Part shown: positions 1 through 10,760 of the stretch, one piece after another
How the letters are laid out: the number at the start of each line of letters is the position of its first letter
Numbering within the stretch: the stretch's first letter is position 1
Origin: an uncultured Intrasporangium sp.
GTDB lineage: Bacteria > Actinomycetota > Actinomycetes > Actinomycetales > Dermatophilaceae
Direction: 5' to 3'
Length of the DNA stretch: 10,760 nt
NCBI GenBank assembly: GCA_937873285.1
Contig: CALMNV010000205.1
Location: 1 to 10,760 of the forward strand
Program-made: the position numbers and the translations under genes
Notes under the pieces: model-generated
What the model saw: only the letters and a program-made list of their open reading frames with translations
Told to the model about the DNA's origin: nothing
The model's database searches: none

Positions 1-3000
1 CCCGCGCCGGAGGGCGAGCGACGCACGCGGCTGGTCTACGTCTCGCCGCTGAAGGCGCTCTCCTACGACGTCGAGAAGAACCTTCGCGCCCCGCTCAAGG
101 GCATCGGCGGCGACGTGACCGTGGCGATCCGGACCGGCGACACGCCCCAGAAGGAGCGCCAGGCGATGCTGCGCACGCCGCCGGACGTGCTGATCACCAC
201 ACCGGAGTCGCTCTACCTGATGCTCACCTCGCGGGCGCGCGAGTTCCTCGTCGACGCCGAGGCCGTGATCGTCGACGAGATCCACGCGGTCGCGCGCACG
301 AAGCGCGGCGCGCATCTCGCGCTCTCACTCGAGCGCCTGGAGGAGGTGGCGGGGCGGCCGCTCCAGCGGATCGGGCTGTCGGCGACGCAGCGACCGCTCG
401 AGGAGGTGGGGCGCTTCCTCGTCGGCGCCCGCCGCGAGTGCACCGTGATCGACGCGGGCGTGCGCAAGCCGCTCGACCTGAAGATCCACGTGCCGGTGGA
501 GAACATGCGCGAGCCGGACGCGCACGACGTGACCGACCCGGCCGTGGGCGGGATGGGCACGGCGGCGGGCGGCGGCGACCTGGTCGGCGACGGCCTCGGC
601 GGAACGGCGCCGGGCGCCACGACCTCGCGCTCGATCTGGCCTGCGATCTACCCCGAGCTCCTGCGCCTGATCCGCGAGCACCGTTCCACGATCGTCTTCG
701 TCAACAACCGCCGCGGCGCCGAGCGGCTCGCCGTGAGGCTGAACGAGCTGGCCGCGGAGGAGGCGGAGGCCGGCGCGCCCGCCTACGTCGCGCGCGCCCA
801 CCACGGGTCGCTCGCCCGCGAGGAGCGGCTCGTCGTCGAGGACCTCCTGAAGTCGGGCGAGCTGCCCTGTCTCGTCGCCACCTCGTCGCTCGAGCTCGGC
901 ATCGACATGGGCGCCGTGGACCTGGTGATCCAGGTGGAGTCGCCGAAGTCGGTGACCGCGGGGCTTCAGCGCATCGGCCGCGCCGGTCATGGCGTCGGCG
1001 AGGTCTCGCGCGGGCGCATCTTCCCCAAGTTCCGCGCCGACCTGCTCGAGTGCGCCGTGGTTGCGCGCCGCATGCGCGACGGCGACATCGAGCCGACGGT
1101 CGTGCCGCGCAACCCGCTCGACGTGCTCGCGCAGCAGGTCGTCGCCATGGCCTCCTCCGAGGAGGAGCTGAAGGTGCCCGCCCTGCACGAGACGATCCGG
1201 CGTGCGTACCCCTTCGCCGAGCTCTCGCGCGAGCTGCTCGACAGCGTCCTCGACATGCTCGACGGCCGCTACCCGTCAGACGAGTTCGCCGAGCTGCGCC
1301 CGCGCATCGTCTGGGACCGCGTCACGGGCACGCTGTCGGGGCGGCGGGGAGCGCAGCGCCTCGCCGTCACGAGTGGCGGCACCATTCCCGACCGTGGGCT
1401 GTATGCCGTCTTCCTCGCCTCGGGGGACGGGCCGGGGCGGCGGGTCGGCGAGCTCGACGAGGAGATGGTCTACGAGTCGCGCGTCGGCGACGTCTTCACC
1501 CTCGGCACGTCGACGTGGCGGATCGAGGACATCACCCACGACCGCGTCCTCGTCACCCCGGCTCCGGGCTCTCCAGGGCGGCTGCCCTTCTGGAAGGGCG
1601 ACCAGCTCGGCCGACCGGCGGAGCTGGGTCGCGCGGTGGGGGCCTTCCTGCGCGAGGTCGTCGGGCTCACCCCGGCGCGGGCCCGCGAACGGGTGCTGCG
1701 CGCCGGTCTCGACGAGTGGGCCGCGGACAACCTGCTCGGCTACCTGCAGGAGCAGCGCGAGGCCACCGCGCACGTGCCTGACGACCGGACCATCGTCCTC
1801 GAGCGCTTCCGCGACGAGATCGGCGACTGGCGGGTGGCCGTGCTGTCGCCCTTCGGTGGCCAGGTCCACGCCCCGTGGGCCCTGTGTGTCGCGGCGCGGA
1901 TGCGCGAGCGCTTCGGCGTCGACGTGCAGGCCATGCACGGCGACGACGGCATCGTCTTCCGGCTTCCCGACCTCGAGTTCGACGACGGCACGCCGGCCGG
2001 GCAGATCGGCCAGCAGCTCGTCGAGCTCGTGACGCTCGAGCCGGACGACATCGCGCCCCTCGTGACCGGCGAGATCGGTGGGTCCGCCCTGTTCGCAGCA
2101 CGGTTCCGCGAGTGCGCCGCACGGGCGCTGCTGCTGCCGCGGCGGCGTCCCGACCGGCGGCAGCCCCTGTGGCAGCAACGCCAACGCGCAGCCCAGCTGC
2201 TCCAGGTGGCGAGCCAGTATCCGTCCTTCCCCATCGTGCTGGAGACGGTGCGCGAGTGCGTGCAGGACGTCTTCGACGTGCCGGGCCTCGTCGAGCTGAT
2301 GGCCGACGTGCGCTCCCGACAGGTGCGCGTCGTCGACATCGAGTCGGCGTCGCCGTCCCCGTTCGCCAAGTCGCTGGCCTTCGGCTACGTCGCCCAGTTC
2401 CTCTACGAGGGCGACTCGCCGCTTGCCGAGCGGCGCGCGGCGGCGCTCGCGCTCGACCCGAGCCTCCTGTCCGAGCTGCTCGGCCAGGGCGAGGCGCTGG
2501 CCCTGCGCGACCTTCTCGACCCGCAGGCCGTGGCCCGCACCGAGGCCGAGCTGCAGCGGCTCACCCCCGAGCGGGGATGCCGCGACGCCGAGGACGTCGC
2601 GGACCTGCTGCGCGCCCTGGGACCGCTGTCCACCCGTGACATCGTGGCCCGATCGGCCGAGGCGTTTGCTCGGGTCGACAGCGTGACCACCGCGCTCACC
2701 GGGCTGCAGGCTGCCCGCCGGGTCATCGCCGTGCGCGTCGGTGGCGAGGACCGCTGGGCCGCGGTGGAGGACGCCGGACGCCTGCGTGACGCACTCGGCA
2801 CCGCTGTGCCGATCGGCATACCGCAGGCGTTCCTCGACCCGGTGCCCGACCCGCTGGGCGACCTCGTCGCCCGGTTCGCCCGCACCCACGGGCCGTTCGC
2901 CGCGCCCACGGTGGCGACGTGGTGGGGGGTCGGGCCGGCGGTCGCGGCCGACGCACTGCGCCGGCTGGTGTCCGCCGGTCGGGTCGTCGAGGGCGAGCTG

Positions 3001-4542
3001 CTCCCGGTCGAGAACGGCGGCGGCCACGGGCCCGAGTTCTGCGACGCGGAGGTGCTGCGTCTGCTGCGCCGGCGCTCGCTGGCCGCCCTGCGGCACGAGG
3101 TGGAACCCGTCGCCCAACCCGACTTCGCGCGGTTCGTTCCCCAGTGGCAGGGCGTGGGAGGCGGGCTGCGAGGACGCGAGGGCCTGCTGCGCGCCGTGGA
3201 GCAGCTCACCGGGGCGGTGCTGCCGGCCAGCGCGCTCGAGACGCTCGTGCTTCCCGCACGCCTCGCCGACTACCGGCCGGCCCTGCTCGATGAGGTGATG
3301 AGCACCGGTGACGTGCTCTGGCGCGGTCACGGCGCGCTGGCCGGCGACGACGGCTGGGTGAGCCTGCACCTGGCCGAGACGGCCCACCTGACCCTGCCGC
3401 CGCCCGAGGAGCGCGACCTGACGGACGCTGAGAAGGCGGTGCTCGACGCGCTGGACGGTGGCGGCGCCTACTTCTTCCGTCCCCTCGCTGAGCGGCTCGG
3501 CGCGCTCGACACCGATCTCCTGGCTGCGCTGTGGTCGCTGACGTGGTCGGGTCGTCTCACCAACGACACGATCGCGCCGCTGCGGGCCACCCTCGCCGGC
3601 GGTCGCACCGCGCACCGACGCGCGAGCACAGCGCCACGCTCGACACGGTATGCCGGCAGGCGAGGCTCGCTGGGTCGGTTCGGCACCCTGCGTGGCGCCC
3701 TTGCGGGGGCCGCGACGGGCTCGCTACCCGCCGCCGAGCAGGTGGCGGCGGAGGCAGCGCTGCGGGTCGGCGCGGCGGCCCGGTCGGGGCCCCCCGCCGG
3801 CGTGGGGCGCTGGACCGCGCTCCCCCGTGCCGAGACCGACCCCACCGTCCGGGCGGTGACGAGCGCCGAGCTGCTGCTCGACCGCTACGGCGTGCTCACG
3901 CGAGGCTCGGTGGCCGCCGAGGACGTGCCGGGCGGCTTCGCGGCGGTCTATCGCGTGCTCGCCGCTGCGGAGGAGGCCGGCAAGGTCCGCCGCGGCTACT
4001 TCGTCGAGTCGCTCGGCGCCTCCCAGTTCGCGACGACCGGTGCGGTGGACCGGCTGCGCGCCGCCGCGCGGTTGCCCGATGACCAACGCGCCGCCGCGCG
4101 GTTGCCCGATGACCAACGAGCCGCCGCGCGGCATACGCTCGTGCTCGCCGCGAGCGACCCCGCGAGCCCATGGGGGGCCGCGCTCGCCTGGCCGGAGCGG
4201 CCGCTCGCGGACGCGGGCGATGCCGAGGCCGGTCCCGAAGCCGCTCGGCGGGGCCACCAACCCGGCCGCAAGGCCGGTGCCCTCGTCGTCACCGTCGACG
4301 GTGCGCTCGTGCTCTATGTCGAACGGGGCGGTCGCACGATCCTCTGCTGGGCCGACGACGCCGAGGCCCTGCAGGCGGCCGCCGATGCGCTCGCGCTCTC
4401 CGTCCGCGAGGGCGCCTTGGGCCGGCTGACCGTCGAGAAGGCCGACGGAGCATCGCTGCTCGGCTCGGGCCACCCGCTTGCCACGGCGCTGGCCAACGCC
4501 GGCTTCCACATGACCCCCCGGGGCCTGCGCCTGCGCCGCTGA
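1..4542 (+). CDS. lhr: ATP-dependent DNA helicase Lhr (DEVH-box, superfamily 2), 5'-truncated by the window edge
   Basis: Large actinobacterial Lhr, a 3'-5' ssDNA translocase and helicase linked to DNA repair. The frame is open from base 1; a GTG at 115 lies inside the conserved helicase core and is not the start. The fragment has 1513 residues. The Q motif and Walker A (GxGKT) lie upstream, so roughly 70-90 residues are missing by comparison with the family. Visible motifs, numbered from base 1: Ia (YVSPLKAL, about 13-20), TTPES, DEIH Walker B at 92-95, SAT at 127-129, IVFVNNRRG (motif IV), ATSSLELGID (motif V) and QRIGRAGH at 323-330. After the two RecA domains come the winged-helix and beta-barrel Lhr-core region (to about residue 850), then a long C-terminal extension typical of the long Lhr type. 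It ends in the family tail with LVLYVERGGRT and AGFHMTPRGLRLR. The linker at about 175-205 is unusually Gly-rich. A 10-residue tandem repeat lies near residue 1354. nei follows 87 bp downstream. Confidence 0.96.
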   Translation, partial: PAPEGERRTRLVYVSPLKALSYDVEKNLRAPLKGIGGDVTVAIRTGDTPQKERQAMLRTPPDVLITTPESLYLMLTSRAREFLVDAEAVIVDEIHAVARTKRGAHLALSLERLEEVAGRPLQRIGLSATQRPLEEVGRFLVGARRECTVIDAGVRKPLDLKIHVPVENMREPDAHDVTDPAVGGMGTAAGGGDLVGDGLGGTAPGATTSRSIWPAIYPELLRLIREHRSTIVFVNNRRGAERLAVRLNELAAEEAEAGAPAYVARAHHGSLAREERLVVEDLLKSGELPCLVATSSLELGIDMGAVDLVIQVESPKSVTAGLQRIGRAGHGVGEVSRGRIFPKFRADLLECAVVARRMRDGDIEPTVVPRNPLDVLAQQVVAMASSEEELKVPALHETIRRAYPFAELSRELLDSVLDMLDGRYPSDEFAELRPRIVWDRVTGTLSGRRGAQRLAVTSGGTIPDRGLYAVFLASGDGPGRRVGELDEEMVYESRVGDVFTLGTSTWRIEDITHDRVLVTPAPGSPGRLPFWKGDQLGRPAELGRAVGAFLREVVGLTPARARERVLRAGLDEWAADNLLGYLQEQREATAHVPDDRTIVLERFRDEIGDWRVAVLSPFGGQVHAPWALCVAARMRERFGVDVQAMHGDDGIVFRLPDLEFDDGTPAGQIGQQLVELVTLEPDDIAPLVTGEIGGSALFAARFRECAARALLLPRRRPDRRQPLWQQRQRAAQLLQVASQYPSFPIVLETVRECVQDVFDVPGLVELMADVRSRQVRVVDIESASPSPFAKSLAFGYVAQFLYEGDSPLAERRAAALALDPSLLSELLGQGEALALRDLLDPQAVARTEAELQRLTPERGCRDAEDVADLLRALGPLSTRDIVARSAEAFARVDSVTTALTGLQAARRVIAVRVGGEDRWAAVEDAGRLRDALGTAVPIGIPQAFLDPVPDPLGDLVARFARTHGPFAAPTVATWWGVGPAVAADALRRLVSAGRVVEGELLPVENGGGHGPEFCDAEVLRLLRRRSLAALRHEVEPVAQPDFARFVPQWQGVGGGLRGREGLLRAVEQLTGAVLPASALETLVLPARLADYRPALLDEVMSTGDVLWRGHGALAGDDGWVSLHLAETAHLTLPPPEERDLTDAEKAVLDALDGGGAYFFRPLAERLGALDTDLLAALWSLTWSGRLTNDTIAPLRATLAGGRTAHRRASTAPRSTRYAGRRGSLGRFGTLRGALAGAATGSLPAAEQVAAEAALRVGAAARSGPPAGVGRWTALPRAETDPTVRAVTSAELLLDRYGVLTRGSVAAEDVPGGFAAVYRVLAAAEEAGKVRRGYFVESLGASQFATTGAVDRLRAAARLPDDQRAAARLPDDQRAAARHTLVLAASDPASPWGAALAWPERPLADAGDAEAGPEAARRGHQPGRKAGALVVTVDGALVLYVERGGRTILCWADDAEALQAAADALALSVREGALGRLTVEKADGASLLGSGHPLATALANAGFHMTPRGLRLRR
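4061..4131 (+). repeat. 30-bp in-frame tandem duplication inside lhr
   Basis: Two adjacent 30-bp units, 4061-4090 and 4091-4120, differ at one base (gaccaacgcg against gaccaacgag). An 11-bp start of a third unit (ccgccgcgcgg) follows at 4121-4131. The unit is a multiple of three, so the reading frame is kept and the protein gains AAARLPDDQR twice followed by AAAR. It sits between two conserved blocks of the Lhr C-terminal region (GAVDRLR before, LVLAASDP after), where a variable loop is expected. The near-identity of the copies suggests a recent slippage or duplication event. An assembly artefact is possible but less likely because of the one-base difference. Confidence 0.9.
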
Positions 4543-5505: not shown

Positions 5506-5522
5506 GAGGCGTGCTCAGCGCT
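5497..5522. terminator. Possible bidirectional hairpin across the convergent nei / exonuclease stops
   Basis: AGC-G-GCTGAG (5497-5506) can pair with CTCAGCGCT (5514-5522) around a 7-nt loop, giving nine base pairs with one bulged G at 5500. Both stop codons (5503-5505 plus, 5515-5517 minus) lie in the stem. The place is right for a shared terminator between converging genes. There is no T-run on either side, so an intrinsic terminator is uncertain. Confidence 0.35.
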
Positions 5523-6198
5523 GGAGCGCTCGCAGCGTCATGGCTCTGCCGCCGCTGAGGCGCGCGACCTGGGCGAGGTAGAGCTCCGCGGTGGCGAGGG
5601 CGTCGCCGAGCGCGCGGTGCTGGCGGTGCGCGGGCAGGCGCAGGTGGGCCCGGGCAGCCGGCAGCCGGAGGGCGCCGGGCGGGATCGCCCCCTCTGCCGC
5701 ACCGAGCACCCGCCGGTGCAGCTCCATCGTGTCGACGACCGTCGCGGGGAAGGGCACCCCGAAGGCACGCTGGGACGCCGCCGAGAGGAACCCCGTCTCC
5801 AGCGGCGCGTGGTGGGCGAGCAGGACGCGTCCGGCGAGCGCCGACGCGACGCGAGCCACGAGCTCGTCCGGCTCGACACCGGCCACCACCATGTCGTCGG
5901 TCAGCCCGTGCACCGCCGCGCTCTGCCCCACGGGCACCTCGGCACGGCATACGACCTCGTCGGCCCCGGACAGGCGCACGACGAGCCCGTCGACCGGCAC
6001 GAACCCGGCTGCCAGGATGGCGTCGCGGCGCGGGTCGAGGCCGGTCGTCTCGAGGTCGAGGGCGAGCAGTCGCAGCCGCGCGACAGCTGTCCCGGGGTCG
6101 GGCGGGGAGGTCTGCAGGTAGTCGCGCAGGGGGCCCCCAGGTGCCCGCTGGGCGAGGCGGTGGCGGTGCAGGTCGGCCGCGAGGCGGTGCAGGATCAC
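5515..6198 (-). CDS. DEDDh 3'-5' exonuclease (DnaQ/RNase T-like), second gene of the nucleotidyltransferase operon
   Basis: Predicted 3'-5' exonuclease of 227 residues. The start chosen is GTG at 6198-6196, which overlaps the TGA of the upstream gene (6197-6195) as GTGA, a typical arrangement for coupled translation. No Shine-Dalgarno is obvious, in keeping with coupling. Longer upstream extensions of the frame run through the neighbour gene in the wrong frame and are not supported. ExoI is LDLETTG with Asp48 and Glu50. ExoII is AHHAPLETGFL, with Glu134 where epsilon-type enzymes have Asp. ExoIII is HRALGDA with His194 and Asp199 (H-x4-D). The first 40 residues (MILHRLAADLHRHRL and on) form a short helical leader. 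Proteins of this type are commonly encoded beside cNMP/CBS/DUF294 proteins. The substrate (DNA, RNA or nucleotide) is unknown, and it is unlikely to be the replicative epsilon subunit. Confidence 0.87.
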   Translation of the reverse strand: MILHRLAADLHRHRLAQRAPGGPLRDYLQTSPPDPGTAVARLRLLALDLETTGLDPRRDAILAAGFVPVDGLVVRLSGADEVVCRAEVPVGQSAAVHGLTDDMVVAGVEPDELVARVASALAGRVLLAHHAPLETGFLSAASQRAFGVPFPATVVDTMELHRRVLGAAEGAIPPGALRLPAARAHLRLPAHRQHRALGDALATAELYLAQVARLSGGRAMTLRALQR

Positions 6199-8054
6199 GA
6201 GACGAACCCGACCGAGTGGGCCTGGGCGAGGGTGTGCTGCACGCCGCGCACCACGGCGAAGGCGTCGCGCAGGTGCCGCTTGTCGAACCCGCTCAGCTCC
6301 GCAGGTGGCACGAAGTTGTCCGGCGCCACGCCGGCCCGCACCTGGCGCGCCTGGTGGACGAGGCGGACGTGCCGGATGTACTCGTACGCGTCCCGCAGGT
6401 CGGCAGCGGACTCCGGCGCGATCGCACCGGCCCCGGCCGCCGCGGTGATGCGCATGGAGGTGCCGAGCTGCGGCAGCCCACGCGTGAGGGCGAGCGTGCG
6501 CGCGATCTCCACGACGGCGCCGACGCCGCCGCGCTTGAGGTCGAGCGTGTCCCGGTGCTCGCCCCGCCGCTCGAGCACGAAGCCGCGGAAGAAGCCGAGC
6601 GGCGGCTCGTTGCCCACCGCGTGCTTGGCCAGGTGCGCGAGGAAGCGCGTGCTCTGCGGCGCCGTCGCCTGGACCTGGCCCTGCAGCGTCCTTACGACCG
6701 CGGCGTCGCCGTGCACCGCTCGCATGTCGAAGAAGATGGCCGAGCGCAGCACCGCCTCGGGCACAGGCACGTGCAACCACTGCGCAAAGAGCCGGCGCCA
6801 CGTTGCGAGGGGCTGCCGCCACGCCGGGTTCGTGGCCATGACGTCGCCCGGGCACCGGGGGTATCCACACCGGGTGAGCCCGTCGACGACGAACCGGGAC
6901 AGGTCCGCGAACCACGGCGCGGCCTCGGGGCCCGCGTCGTCGGAAAGGATGAGGGCGTTGTCCTGGTCGCTGGCCAGGCCTTGCTCCAGCCGGGCCTGGG
7001 AGCCGAGCACGACCCAGCAGTATGCCGCCGGGGCCGGTCCCAGCGACTCCTCGGCGAGCTCGAGCAGCTTGCGGGTGATCGCGTCCCCGACCGCGGTGAC
7101 GATCCTGGCGACCCCGTCGGCGCTGGCGTCCGCCGCGACGAGCCGCTCGACGACGCCGGGCAGCCGGGCGGCGACCCGGGCGAGCCCGTCGACGTCACGC
7201 TGCTTCGCAGTCTCTCCCACGAGCGAGACCGGGTCGGCCTGCTCGAGCCTGAGCACGTCGGAGCTGGTCACCATGCCGACCGGCTCGTCTCCATCCACCA
7301 CGGGGACGTGGTGGATGGCCCGCGACGTCATCCGCAGCACGACGTCGAGCGCGTGGTCGTCGGGGGCCGCCACGACCGGGTCGCGGGTCATGATGGTCGC
7401 GACCGGTGCGGTGGGGTCGCGGCGCACGGCGAGCACCCGGTTGCGCAGGTCCCGGTCGGTGACGATGCCGACGAGCCGGCCGGCCTCGACGACGAGCAGC
7501 GAGGAGACCCCTTCGCGGGCCATGATGGCTGCCGCGTCCCCGATGGTCGTGTCGGCCGTCGTGCCGACGGGGGGTCGGCGCACGAGGTCGCCGACCCGGG
7601 TCTGGAGCGCGGCGTCTCGCTGCGCGAGGTTGACGGTCTCCACGGCCTGGCGCAGTCGCGTCGCGCGCTGCTGCGAGAAGTAGCCGTCCACGGCCGGATG
7701 CGCGGCGGTGACCTCGCGGAAGGCCGGTGCGGGCAGCACGAGGAGGAGCGTGTCCTCCAGCGCGGTGACCGCGAACCGCGACCTGGTGCCGTCGAGCGTG
7801 GTCGTGCCGAAGGACCCACCCTCGGCGCACCGCTCGACGAGGCGGCCACTGTCGTCGTCGACCTGCACCGCGCCCGACCGGACGACGAAGACCTCGTCGT
7901 TGGGCGCGCCCACGGTCATGAGGGCGGTGCCGCGCCGCGCGTAGCGGATGCTCATCCGACGGGCGAGCGCCCGCAGCTGCGCTTCCGACAGGACTGCCCA
8001 CGGCGCATGCTGGGCGAGGAAGTCGACCACCTCGGGGATCTCGACGTCGGGCAC
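6195..8054 (-). CDS. Cyclic-nucleotide-binding-like / CBS pair / DUF294 nucleotidyltransferase protein
   Basis: Predicted cytoplasmic signalling protein of 619 residues. Domain order: cNMP-binding-like beta-roll (about 12-125), linker helix, two CBS domains (about 155-212 and 218-272, with GIVTDRDLR and GMVTSSDVL), a GlnD-like DUF294 nucleotidyltransferase (about 300-430) and a DUF294 C-terminal helical domain (about 445-615). The transferase signature is G351-S352 followed by SDQDNALI, with metal-binding Asp363 and Asp365, so the catalytic site looks intact. The phosphate-binding cassette of the cNMP domain is degenerate: FGT instead of FGE, then RSRFAVTA. GTG at 8054 is preferred because the protein then begins MPDVEIPEVVDFL, just ahead of the first conserved helix. 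No strong Shine-Dalgarno precedes it. An in-frame ATG further upstream (near 8201) would run back through the divergent promoter and adds no domain. It is translationally coupled to the downstream exonuclease. The transferred nucleotide and target are unknown. Confidence 0.9.
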   Translation of the reverse strand: MPDVEIPEVVDFLAQHAPWAVLSEAQLRALARRMSIRYARRGTALMTVGAPNDEVFVVRSGAVQVDDDSGRLVERCAEGGSFGTTTLDGTRSRFAVTALEDTLLLVLPAPAFREVTAAHPAVDGYFSQQRATRLRQAVETVNLAQRDAALQTRVGDLVRRPPVGTTADTTIGDAAAIMAREGVSSLLVVEAGRLVGIVTDRDLRNRVLAVRRDPTAPVATIMTRDPVVAAPDDHALDVVLRMTSRAIHHVPVVDGDEPVGMVTSSDVLRLEQADPVSLVGETAKQRDVDGLARVAARLPGVVERLVAADASADGVARIVTAVGDAITRKLLELAEESLGPAPAAYCWVVLGSQARLEQGLASDQDNALILSDDAGPEAAPWFADLSRFVVDGLTRCGYPRCPGDVMATNPAWRQPLATWRRLFAQWLHVPVPEAVLRSAIFFDMRAVHGDAAVVRTLQGQVQATAPQSTRFLAHLAKHAVGNEPPLGFFRGFVLERRGEHRDTLDLKRGGVGAVVEIARTLALTRGLPQLGTSMRITAAAGAGAIAPESAADLRDAYEYIRHVRLVHQARQVRAGVAPDNFVPPAELSGFDKRHLRDAFAVVRGVQHTLAQAHSVGFVS

Positions 8055-8207
8055 GTCGACATCGTCGCACCGGTCGGCCGCCCAGGACCGGCGCCGTGGC
8101 GTGGATGCCCCACGGCCTACGGCCTCAATTGCGTCACGAGCATTGACGGCCGTATGCAGCGTCGCTATACATGCAGCGGACATCGTTGTCTCACATGGAG
8201 GTTCGAC
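8055..8207. promoter_or_regulatory. Divergent intergenic region between the DUF294 gene and the sugar ABC operon
   Basis: The only real intergenic stretch of the window, 153 bp, with a locally AT-richer core at about 8125-8175. It holds a rightward promoter, the FrcB-like ribosome binding site GGAGG at 8197-8201 (6 nt before ATG 8208), and several short repeats. GCCGTGG at 8093-8099 and CCACGGC at 8110-8116 form a hairpin with a 10-nt loop. TACGGCC at 8118-8124 and GGCCGTA at 8148-8154 form a second inverted pair around the -35 box. ATGCAGCG is directly repeated at 8154-8161 and 8171-8178, on either side of the -10 box. No leftward promoter for the DUF294 gene stands out. Confidence 0.6.
8143..8171 (+). 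promoter_or_regulatory. Sigma-A/70-type promoter for the sugar ABC operon
   Basis: TTGACG (8143-8148) and TATACA (8166-8171) are separated by exactly 17 bp. Each is close to consensus (TTGACA, TATAAT), in a background where AT-rich hexamers are rare. Initiation would fall near 8178-8180 and give a leader of about 28 nt carrying the GGAGG site. The flanking direct repeat ATGCAGCG and inverted repeat TACGGCC/GGCCGTA are well placed to be operator half-sites for a repressor, but they match no operator I recognise. Confidence 0.7.
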
Positions 8208-9302
8208 ATGACGCCAGCTCTCGCCGTCAGCCGTCGCCCCGGCGCCATCGCGGTGGCAACCGTCGCGGTCGCCGTGGTGCTCAGTGCCTGCGGAGGCAAC
8301 GGTGCCGGCGGATCGAGTGGGGGAGCCAGTGGCGGCGAGAAGATCGGCGTCTCCCTCATCACCAAGGACTCCTCGAACCCGTTCTTCGTGGCCATGCAGA
8401 AGGGCGCCAAGGAGATGGCCGCCAAGCAGGGCAACATCGACCTGACCGTCGCCTCCGGCAAGCAGGAGGGAGACGACCAAGGGCAGATCACGGCGATCGA
8501 AAGCGCCATCGCCAAGGGCGACAAGGGGATTCTCATCACCCCGATGTCCACCGGCGTGAACTCGGCGATCAAGAAGGCGCGAGACGCGGGCCTGTTCGTC
8601 ATCGCGCTGGACACTCCTCCCGATCCCCCCAGCACCGTGGACATCACCTTCGCGACCGACAACTTCAAGGCCGGCAAGCTCATCGGCCAGTGGGCCGCCG
8701 CGCAGATGAAGGGCAAGCCTGCGACCATCGCGCTGCTCGACCTGTTCAACGACAAGATCGTGTCCGTCGACTACAACCGTGACCAAGGCTTCCTCACCGG
8801 CATGGGGATCCCCACCAAGGATCCCAAGAAGAACGGTGACGAGGACAAGACCGGGACCTACTCCGGAGGCAGCTACACCATCGTCTGCAACGAGGCCGGC
8901 AATGGCGCGGAGGACGGTGGCCGGTCGGCGATGGAACGCTGCCTGACGAAGAACCCCGACATCAACCTCGTCTACACGATCAACGAGCCGACCGCGGTCG
9001 GTGCCAACGCCGCGTTGAAGGCCCAGAACAAGAAGGCGGTCATCGTGTCGGTCGACGGTGGCTGCGCGGGCGTCAGCTCCGTCAAGTCGGGAGTCATCGG
9101 CGCCACCGCTCAGCAGTACCCGTTGAAGATGGCGCAGCTGGGCATCAAGGCCATCTACGACATCGCGACGGGCGGCACCAAGCCCACCACCTCTCCCGGC
9201 CTCGACTTCTACGACACCGGGGTGGCGCTCGTGACCGACCAGAAGGTCAGCGGCCTCGACAGCATCACCAGCGACGAGGCCTCGAAGATCTGCTGGGGCT
9301 GA
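8208..9302 (+). CDS. frcB: Sugar ABC transporter substrate-binding lipoprotein (FrcB-like, probable fructose/ribose family)
   Basis: Extracytoplasmic sugar-binding lipoprotein of 364 residues that would deliver substrate to the permease encoded next. The ATG at 8208 has GGAGG 6 nt upstream. The N-terminus is a lipoprotein signal: a short Arg-containing n-region, a hydrophobic stretch at about 12-25 and lipobox L25-S-A-C28, with lipid attachment expected at Cys28, then a Gly/Ser-rich tether. The mature part is a periplasmic-binding-protein type 1 (Peripla_BP_4) fold. Recognisable blocks are SNPFFVAMQKGA, the ALDTP strand end, FATDNFKAG, TINEPTAVGA, VSVDGGCAG and the C-terminal LDFYDTGVALVTD ending CWG. 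These blocks resemble fructose-binding FrcB proteins more than ribose RbsB, but ligand specificity from sequence alone is tentative. It is the first gene of the operon, 1 bp before the permease ATG. It is visibly richer in Lys and Asn codons than the lhr half of the window. Confidence 0.92.
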   Translation: MTPALAVSRRPGAIAVATVAVAVVLSACGGNGAGGSSGGASGGEKIGVSLITKDSSNPFFVAMQKGAKEMAAKQGNIDLTVASGKQEGDDQGQITAIESAIAKGDKGILITPMSTGVNSAIKKARDAGLFVIALDTPPDPPSTVDITFATDNFKAGKLIGQWAAAQMKGKPATIALLDLFNDKIVSVDYNRDQGFLTGMGIPTKDPKKNGDEDKTGTYSGGSYTIVCNEAGNGAEDGGRSAMERCLTKNPDINLVYTINEPTAVGANAALKAQNKKAVIVSVDGGCAGVSSVKSGVIGATAQQYPLKMAQLGIKAIYDIATGGTKPTTSPGLDFYDTGVALVTDQKVSGLDSITSDEASKICWG

Positions 9303-9303
9303 C

Positions 9304-10347
9304 ATGACCTCCGCGACGACGGCCGGTGGATCGGGCCCGAGCGCTGCCCAGGCGGAGCTGACCAGAAGGGCTCAATCGCCGGCCCAGCGTGTCCAGCACC
9401 TCCTCCACGCTCACCCGTGGGTGAGCCCGCTCGTGCTGCTCATCATCACGGTCATCGTGTTCTCGGTCGTCAACCCGCGGTTCATGCTGCCGAACTCGCT
9501 GTCGCTGCTGGTGCAGCAGACGGCCGTGGTCGCTGCTCTCGCGCTGGGCCAGACCCTCGTCATCCTCACCGCCGGCATCGATCTGTCGGTGGGCGCGATC
9601 ACCATCCTCTCGACGATGATCATGGCCTCGCTCGCAGCGAACAACGGTGTCAACGGCGGCCTGTCGCTGCTTGTCGGCATCGCCTTCGGCCTCCTCGCCG
9701 GGTGGGTCAACGGCCTCCTCGTCACCCGGATCAACCTGCCTCCCTTCATCGTCACACTGGGGACGCTGAGCATCTTCACGGCCGTTGCCCTGCTCTACTC
9801 CGGGGGCTCCAGCATCCAGGACAACCGGTTGCCCGACGTCATCAACTGGGCCGGACAAGGGTTCTCCTTCCTGGGGTTCCGGCTGACCACCGGCGTCGTG
9901 ATCGTCCTGCTCATGTATGTCGTGGTGGGGTTCGCGCTGAGCCAGACCGCCTGGGGCCGGCACGTCTACGCCGTCGGGGACGATCCCGAGTCCGCGCGAC
10001 TGAGCGGCATCGCCAGCAAGCGGGTCCTGCTCTCGGTCTACTCCGTGGCCGGCCTGATCTTCGGCATCGCCGCCTGGGTGCTCATCGGCCGGTCCGGTGG
10101 CGCCACGCCGAACGCCATCACCGACGGCAACCTGCAGAGCATCACGGCGGTCGTCATCGGCGGCACCAGCCTCTTCGGAGGTCGCGGTGGGGTCATTGGC
10201 ACGCTCATCGGCGCGCTCATCGTCCAGGCGTTCACGGTGGGACTCTCACTGGCCGGCGTGGACCAGCAGTTCCGTGTCCTGGCCGTCGGCATCCTCGTCA
10301 TCGTCGCTGTCGCCATCGATCAGTGGATCAGGAGGGTGAGATCGTGA
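9304..10347 (+). CDS. frcC: Sugar ABC transporter permease (FrcC/RbsC-like, BPD_transp_2)
   Basis: Inner-membrane permease of 347 residues forming the sugar channel. A hydrophilic cytoplasmic N-terminus (about 1-38) is followed by multiple hydrophobic segments, with clear ones near 40-56, 67-90, 97-112, 119-139, 147-165, 196-213, 240-262, 279-312 and 324-341. Family signatures are GQTLVILTAGIDLSVGA (82-98), NGLLVTRINLPPFIVTLGT (136-154), the cytoplasmic coupling loop GRHVYAVGDDPESARLSGI (218-236) and GGTSLFGGRGGVIGT (286-300). The ATG lies 1 bp after the binding-protein stop with only a weak purine run (GGGG) upstream, so translation is probably coupled. Its own stop overlaps the GTG of the ATPase gene. 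Sequence alone cannot separate a fructose from a ribose or xylose permease; the FrcB-like partner favours fructose. Confidence 0.93.
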   Translation: MTSATTAGGSGPSAAQAELTRRAQSPAQRVQHLLHAHPWVSPLVLLIITVIVFSVVNPRFMLPNSLSLLVQQTAVVAALALGQTLVILTAGIDLSVGAITILSTMIMASLAANNGVNGGLSLLVGIAFGLLAGWVNGLLVTRINLPPFIVTLGTLSIFTAVALLYSGGSSIQDNRLPDVINWAGQGFSFLGFRLTTGVVIVLLMYVVVGFALSQTAWGRHVYAVGDDPESARLSGIASKRVLLSVYSVAGLIFGIAAWVLIGRSGGATPNAITDGNLQSITAVVIGGTSLFGGRGGVIGTLIGALIVQAFTVGLSLAGVDQQFRVLAVGILVIVAVAIDQWIRRVRS

Positions 10348-10760
10348 GCGGCGCGCGGCCTGAGCCTGCGGTGGGCGCGGCGAGCCCGGCGAGCGCGGAG
10401 GCGGGCAGTGGGGCCGGGCGCACACCCGTCCTGCAGGGCAGAGGCCTGATCAAGACGTTCGGCCGGGTCATCGGCTTCCCACAGTTCACGGCATCGGCCG
10501 ACGCGATCTCGGTCGCGGGCGCGCTGACCGGCGGCGTCTTCCTGCCCGTCGTGTTTCCCGTCAACATCGTCGACTGCGATACCAACGGCGACCTCGGGAC
10601 GGGCGAGATGAACTGGCAGATCAGCAATCCGGACGGTCCGGATGCTGACCTCAACCCGGAAGGCCAGGAATACATCGTGCCTCTATGCAAGACGGGTGGC
10701 GGATCCTTCATGATCCTCGACCTCGACGGCACGCCCAACAACTGCGACGACGAGGTCGCC
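10344..10760 (+). CDS. Chimeric open frame: N-terminus of sugar ABC ATPase (FrcA-like) running into unrelated sequence; incomplete at window end
   Basis: The GTG start at 10344 overlaps the permease TGA (GTGA) and has AGGAGG at 10330-10335, 8 nt upstream, exactly where the ATPase of an FrcBCA-type operon should start. Residues 1-28 are a low-complexity Ala/Gly leader. Residues 29-44 (VLQGRGLIKTFGRVIG) match the first strands and A-loop region of sugar ABC ATPases. The family would continue with LDGV-type sequence, then Walker A (GxNGAGKST). Instead, from about residue 45 (base 10476) the frame reads FPQFTASADAISVAG and on to a Cys/Asp/Asn-rich stretch, with no Walker A in the 139 codons visible. 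The frame has no stop up to the window edge. As it stands this product could not be a working ATPase. See the separate entry for the second half. Confidence 0.75.
   Translation, partial: MSGARPEPAVGAASPASAEAGSGAGRTPVLQGRGLIKTFGRVIGFPQFTASADAISVAGALTGGVFLPVVFPVNIVDCDTNGDLGTGEMNWQISNPDGPDADLNPEGQEYIVPLCKTGGGSFMILDLDGTPNNCDDEVA
10476..10760 (+). other. Foreign segment resembling a secreted Tad/Flp pilus (TadE/TadG-like) protein, fused in frame
   Basis: Residues 45-139 of the frame contain LPVVFPVNIVDCDTNGD, INW-like NWQISNPDGPD, GQEYIVPLCKTGGGSFM and LDLDGTPNNCDDEV. The paired cysteines, many Asp/Asn/Gly residues and a hydrophobic start are what I remember from the extracellular part of actinobacterial TadE/TadG-like pilus-assembly proteins. 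This is recognition from memory, not a search. There is no relation to nucleotide-binding domains. By hand count 10561-10740 is 60% GC and 10501-10560 is 73% GC; this alone does not mark the junction, since frcB has stretches near 63%. The segment continues past the window end. Confidence 0.5.

Follow-up and report, generated by a model that had tools for sequence, protein, structure and literature searches.

The open reading frame that runs off the right end of the contig analysed here, in which the start of a sugar importer ATPase gene (frcA) appears to be fused to part of a tadG-like gene, is very likely, rather than proven, to be a chimeric contig end, and so an artefact and not biology. 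The window, meaning the whole stretch of DNA that was analysed, is one entire contig (C205, 10,760 bp) with position 10760 as the contig end, and it belongs to a draft genome (344 contigs, 1.84 Mb) of 58% completeness. The tail of other origin occupies the final 285 bases of this contig and would have its origin in another bacterium, a member of a Chloroflexota lineage. Two observations characteristic of a chimera carry this reading: the two sides of the join occur elsewhere in separate, intact proteins (P0144 and P0001, respectively), and a short word is common to the sources at the join (TFGRVIG at the protein level, and 20 bases of DNA in one pair of relatives).

The sugar-import operon and its ATPase gene

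The right end of the contig carries a sugar-import operon in the order binding protein, permease, ATPase start, followed by the tail:

8100..9302, plus strand: frcB-like sugar-binding protein (Pfam Peripla_BP_4, 6.7e-41); frame given from 8100, exact start unsettled
9304..10347, plus strand: frcC-like sugar ABC permease (Pfam BPD_transp_2, 3.1e-32)
10344..10475, plus strand: opening 44 codons of a gene for an FrcA-type ABC ATPase, corresponding to residues 1-44 of the intact P0144
10455..10475, plus strand: junction word of 21 bases, coding for TFGRVIG, where the identities to P0144 and P0001 overlap
10476..10760, plus strand: probable contig end of other origin, a stretch from within a tadG-like gene of Chloroflexota type; together with the junction word it corresponds to residues 140-241 of P0001

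The frcC gene is 82% identical at the DNA level to that of G025, a genome of the same family and the closest relative found. A GTG start codon at 10344 overlaps the end of frcC (10347) by GTGA, and the frame that it opens stays open to the contig end, with 139 aa visible. When residues 1-44 were used in a protein search, P0144 was the lone strong match (E value of 7.4e-17, against 3.9e-3 for the runner-up). This protein is an intact ABC ATPase of 290 aa encoded on a contig of 2,617 bp, and the window is identical to it at 44 of 44 residues, counting the GTG as Met. Past residue 44, P0144 goes on as a normal ATPase with GDNGAGKS and LSGGQ motifs (ABC_tran, 4.6e-31), and it shares 81% identity with the ATPase encoded 3' of frcC in G025. 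Residues 1-44 of the window are thus the start of an FrcA/RbsA-type sugar ABC ATPase (ABC_tran, PF00005), set in the same operon order, and judged by its sequence the stretch 10344..10475 is a genuine continuation of the operon. Unlike ATPases of that type, the frame from 10344 has no Pfam match to ABC_tran and shows neither Walker A nor LSGGQ, as the real gene is not continued in the contig.

The gene is present in full in related genomes. An intact frcA lies after frcC in the locus of G025 (L003) and, in the comparison with close genomes that the initial annotation had proposed, frcC was followed by an intact ATPase frame that includes Walker A and LSGGQ in 18 of the 19 loci of the best relatives. 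These loci are the best matches of a search with the frcC region, which matched 46 of 58 genomes, the window's own included. Walker A lies 136-280 bases beyond the end of the permease match in the 18 loci, and the one locus without an ATPase (L021) had entered the set through a match of 239 bases. A broken ATPase gene is therefore not the general condition of this lineage.

No remainder of frcA was found in the draft genome itself, where, outside the window, the G025 ATPase has its best-scoring match at 43% identity. A test of whether a different contig of the draft carries the remaining part of the gene gave no support for this idea, although the 58% completeness weakens this absence. A search of the draft with P0001 returned a sole further match, a weak one (33% identity over residues 2-67, E value of 0.007). 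A draft with neither the rest of frcA nor a strong tad piece would fit, if only weakly, a contig that is broken within frcA and carries a stray end.

The tail and its relatives

The 94 residues of the tail matched 453 of 513 candidates at an E value of at most 0.001, and the best match was P0001 (8.9e-56), an intact protein of 371 aa from a contig of 4,959 bp. Window residues 38-139 and P0001 residues 140-241 are identical over all 102 positions. The identities to P0144 on one side and to P0001 on the other bear out the initial annotation, which had described a frame that opens as an FrcA-type ATPase and then becomes, without loss of phase, a Tad-like protein. The switch that it had placed near 10476 is also where the identities put it, within codons 38-44 (10455-10475), the first purely foreign base being at about 10476. 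For the full-length parent its Tad label is correct, as P0001 carries PF13400 (Tad) at residues 11-56, outside the piece present in the window; the 94-aa tail alone gave no family match in Pfam, NCBIfam or PHROGs at an E value of up to 1. The window therefore holds an internal stretch (residues 38-139) of a TadG-like Flp pilus-assembly protein (PF13400). Unlike the full protein, this piece is without the N-terminal PF13400 segment, no match to which was obtained in it, and it does not by itself qualify as a TadG.

The relatives of the tail point to Chloroflexota. The two relatives that carry an organism's name among the best 120 of the 453 matches are TadG-related proteins, one of a Chloroflexota bacterium and one of a Candidatus Limnocylindrales bacterium, and all three tail loci in the genome collection belong to MAGs titled Chloroflexota or Chloroflexi. 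Of 148 other genomes from the family to which the window belongs, 8 matched the tail at an E value of at most 0.01, all with 25-33% identity. Set against the Chloroflexota relatives, these low identities indicate that the two sources are distant from each other. The donor DNA was not reached when a close tadG relative was sought at the DNA level in 126 genomes from the order of genome G171 and in 177 from its class; the same 9 genomes passed in both sets, and the best DNA identity to tadG was 70%. The join is unmarked by composition, the GC content of 10460-10739 (0.646) being within the range of the adjoining stretches (0.625-0.711).

The shared word and the probable origin of the join

The identities to P0144 and P0001 overlap by seven residues, TFGRVIG (10455-10475), and the parents diverge right after them, with Leu in the ATPase and Phe in both the Tad protein and the window. 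It follows from this overlap that the join is inside a word of at most about 21 bases that the two genes read in a common frame. We infer from the protein identity and from the relatives that the two parent genes would be identical over the full 21 bases. At the same position, an exact word of 20 bases is common, in frame, to two genes from two other genomes, frcA of L005 and tadG of L043, and each of these genes contains 18 of the bases of the junction word. This was the longest word among 72 pairs (18 frcA loci with 4 of the 9 tadG loci), 27 of which share at least 12 bases. The DNA word is not general, however: the longest run in common with 10441-10500 is 13 bases in G025 (L003) and 10 bases in L032 and L033, and L031 has no run of 10 bases or more.

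At the protein level, a word of at least seven residues was shared by 4 of 5,000 shuffled P0144/P0001 pairs. TFGRVIG is present in 26 of 26 FrcA proteins, a biased count as the word was in the query, and in 66 of the 143 Tad proteins listed. It occurs in 58 of the best 120 tail matches (of 453), for which the scored region excluded the word. As TFGRVIG is found in many TadG-like proteins and near the starts of FrcA-type ATPases, false joins of this kind may also be present in other assemblies. No copy of the 21-base word was found by a scan of viral contigs, a result that is neutral either way.

A length of 21 bases is about the smallest k in common use in short-read assemblers. The assembler would have followed the genuine sugar-import operon into frcA up to the word of about 21 bases (10455-10475) and, the word being also present in the tadG-like gene of the other organism, would have taken the wrong branch there until the path ended. 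The 95 codons that follow are so clean because they belong to a genuine gene, which was entered in phase by way of the common word, and the appearance of an in-frame fusion is explained by the agreement in frame of the two genes over TFGRVIG. The initial annotation was thus right that the frame is too clean for chance, although it is the word common to both genes in phase, and not selection, that keeps it so.

Chimeric contigs from short-read metagenomes likewise join the sequences of two organisms at a short shared word. A passage of PMC7299287 notes, for closely related species, that graphs linked by shared k-mer sets can give chimeric contigs. The present contig differs from these in that its parents are distant and its word is in frame in both genes, which makes the join mimic a protein fusion. 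In PMC3901335 the results section has the common ancestors of chimeras tending to low taxonomic levels, while the discussion section places most of them at the class, order and phylum levels; as these two sections differ, the distance between the parents speaks clearly neither for nor against a chimera.

The false join was probably made in the k-mer graph of the assembler rather than in the library. A chimeric molecule formed by amplification or ligation and then assembled seems a very improbable source: template switching uses short shared words in the same way, but such molecules are, as a rule, individually rare and would seldom yield a contig end.

The initial annotation had offered two readings, a chimeric contig and a recombination event that joined two genes and destroyed the motor subunit of the importer. 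The former is strongly supported by the intact parents and by a join at a shared word near the contig end. The latter would have a fragment of a Chloroflexota tadG joined to frcA within a cell through microhomology of about 21 bases, with the importer losing its ATPase, and is more improbable still. Although the join leaves the frame open and a short shared word could have served recombination as well, an intact ATPase with an identical 44-residue start exists (P0144), the Tad parent is on another contig, and the tad piece extends to the very end of the contig. The donor piece is moreover unchanged over 102 residues, which would demand a very recent event between distant lineages. Recombination that recent, between lineages that distant, in a single strain of the population and fatal to the ATPase is a combination to which we give hardly any credence.

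Nor was a fusion seen among the proteins listed. The same fusion was not found in independent sequence by a search across the join span (best 120 of 134 matches), in which the maximum coverage of the span was 93%, by a protein of 377 aa with a Tad domain (P0025). A pattern search of protein starts revealed no ATPase-like start among the 143 listed Tad proteins from the tail and join-span searches, which also counts against recombination. Inspection of the starts of the 11 listed Tad proteins shorter than 330 aa gave none like that of an ATPase.

Taking the join as an assembly artefact leaves the biology unchanged and provides a worked case of an assembly join that resembles an in-frame protein fusion. 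The word that misleads an assembler can at the same time have a common phase in the two genes, and claims of gene fusion near the ends of draft contigs should be checked for a shared word and for intact parents.

Other genes on the contig

Upstream of the operon, positions 1-4542 hold a gene for an Lhr-type helicase (DEAD_assoc and WH_Lhr domains), the 5' end of which is cut by the contig start, and an Fpg/Nei-type DNA glycosylase gene follows from 4630. The minus strand encodes a cNMP-binding/CBS/DUF294 protein (6198-8066) and an RNase T-like exonuclease (5518-6915); the two frames overlap as searched, and their true starts are unsettled. Within the lhr-type helicase gene, a unit of 30 bases is present twice as an exact tandem repeat (4057-4116), duplicating a stretch of ten residues.
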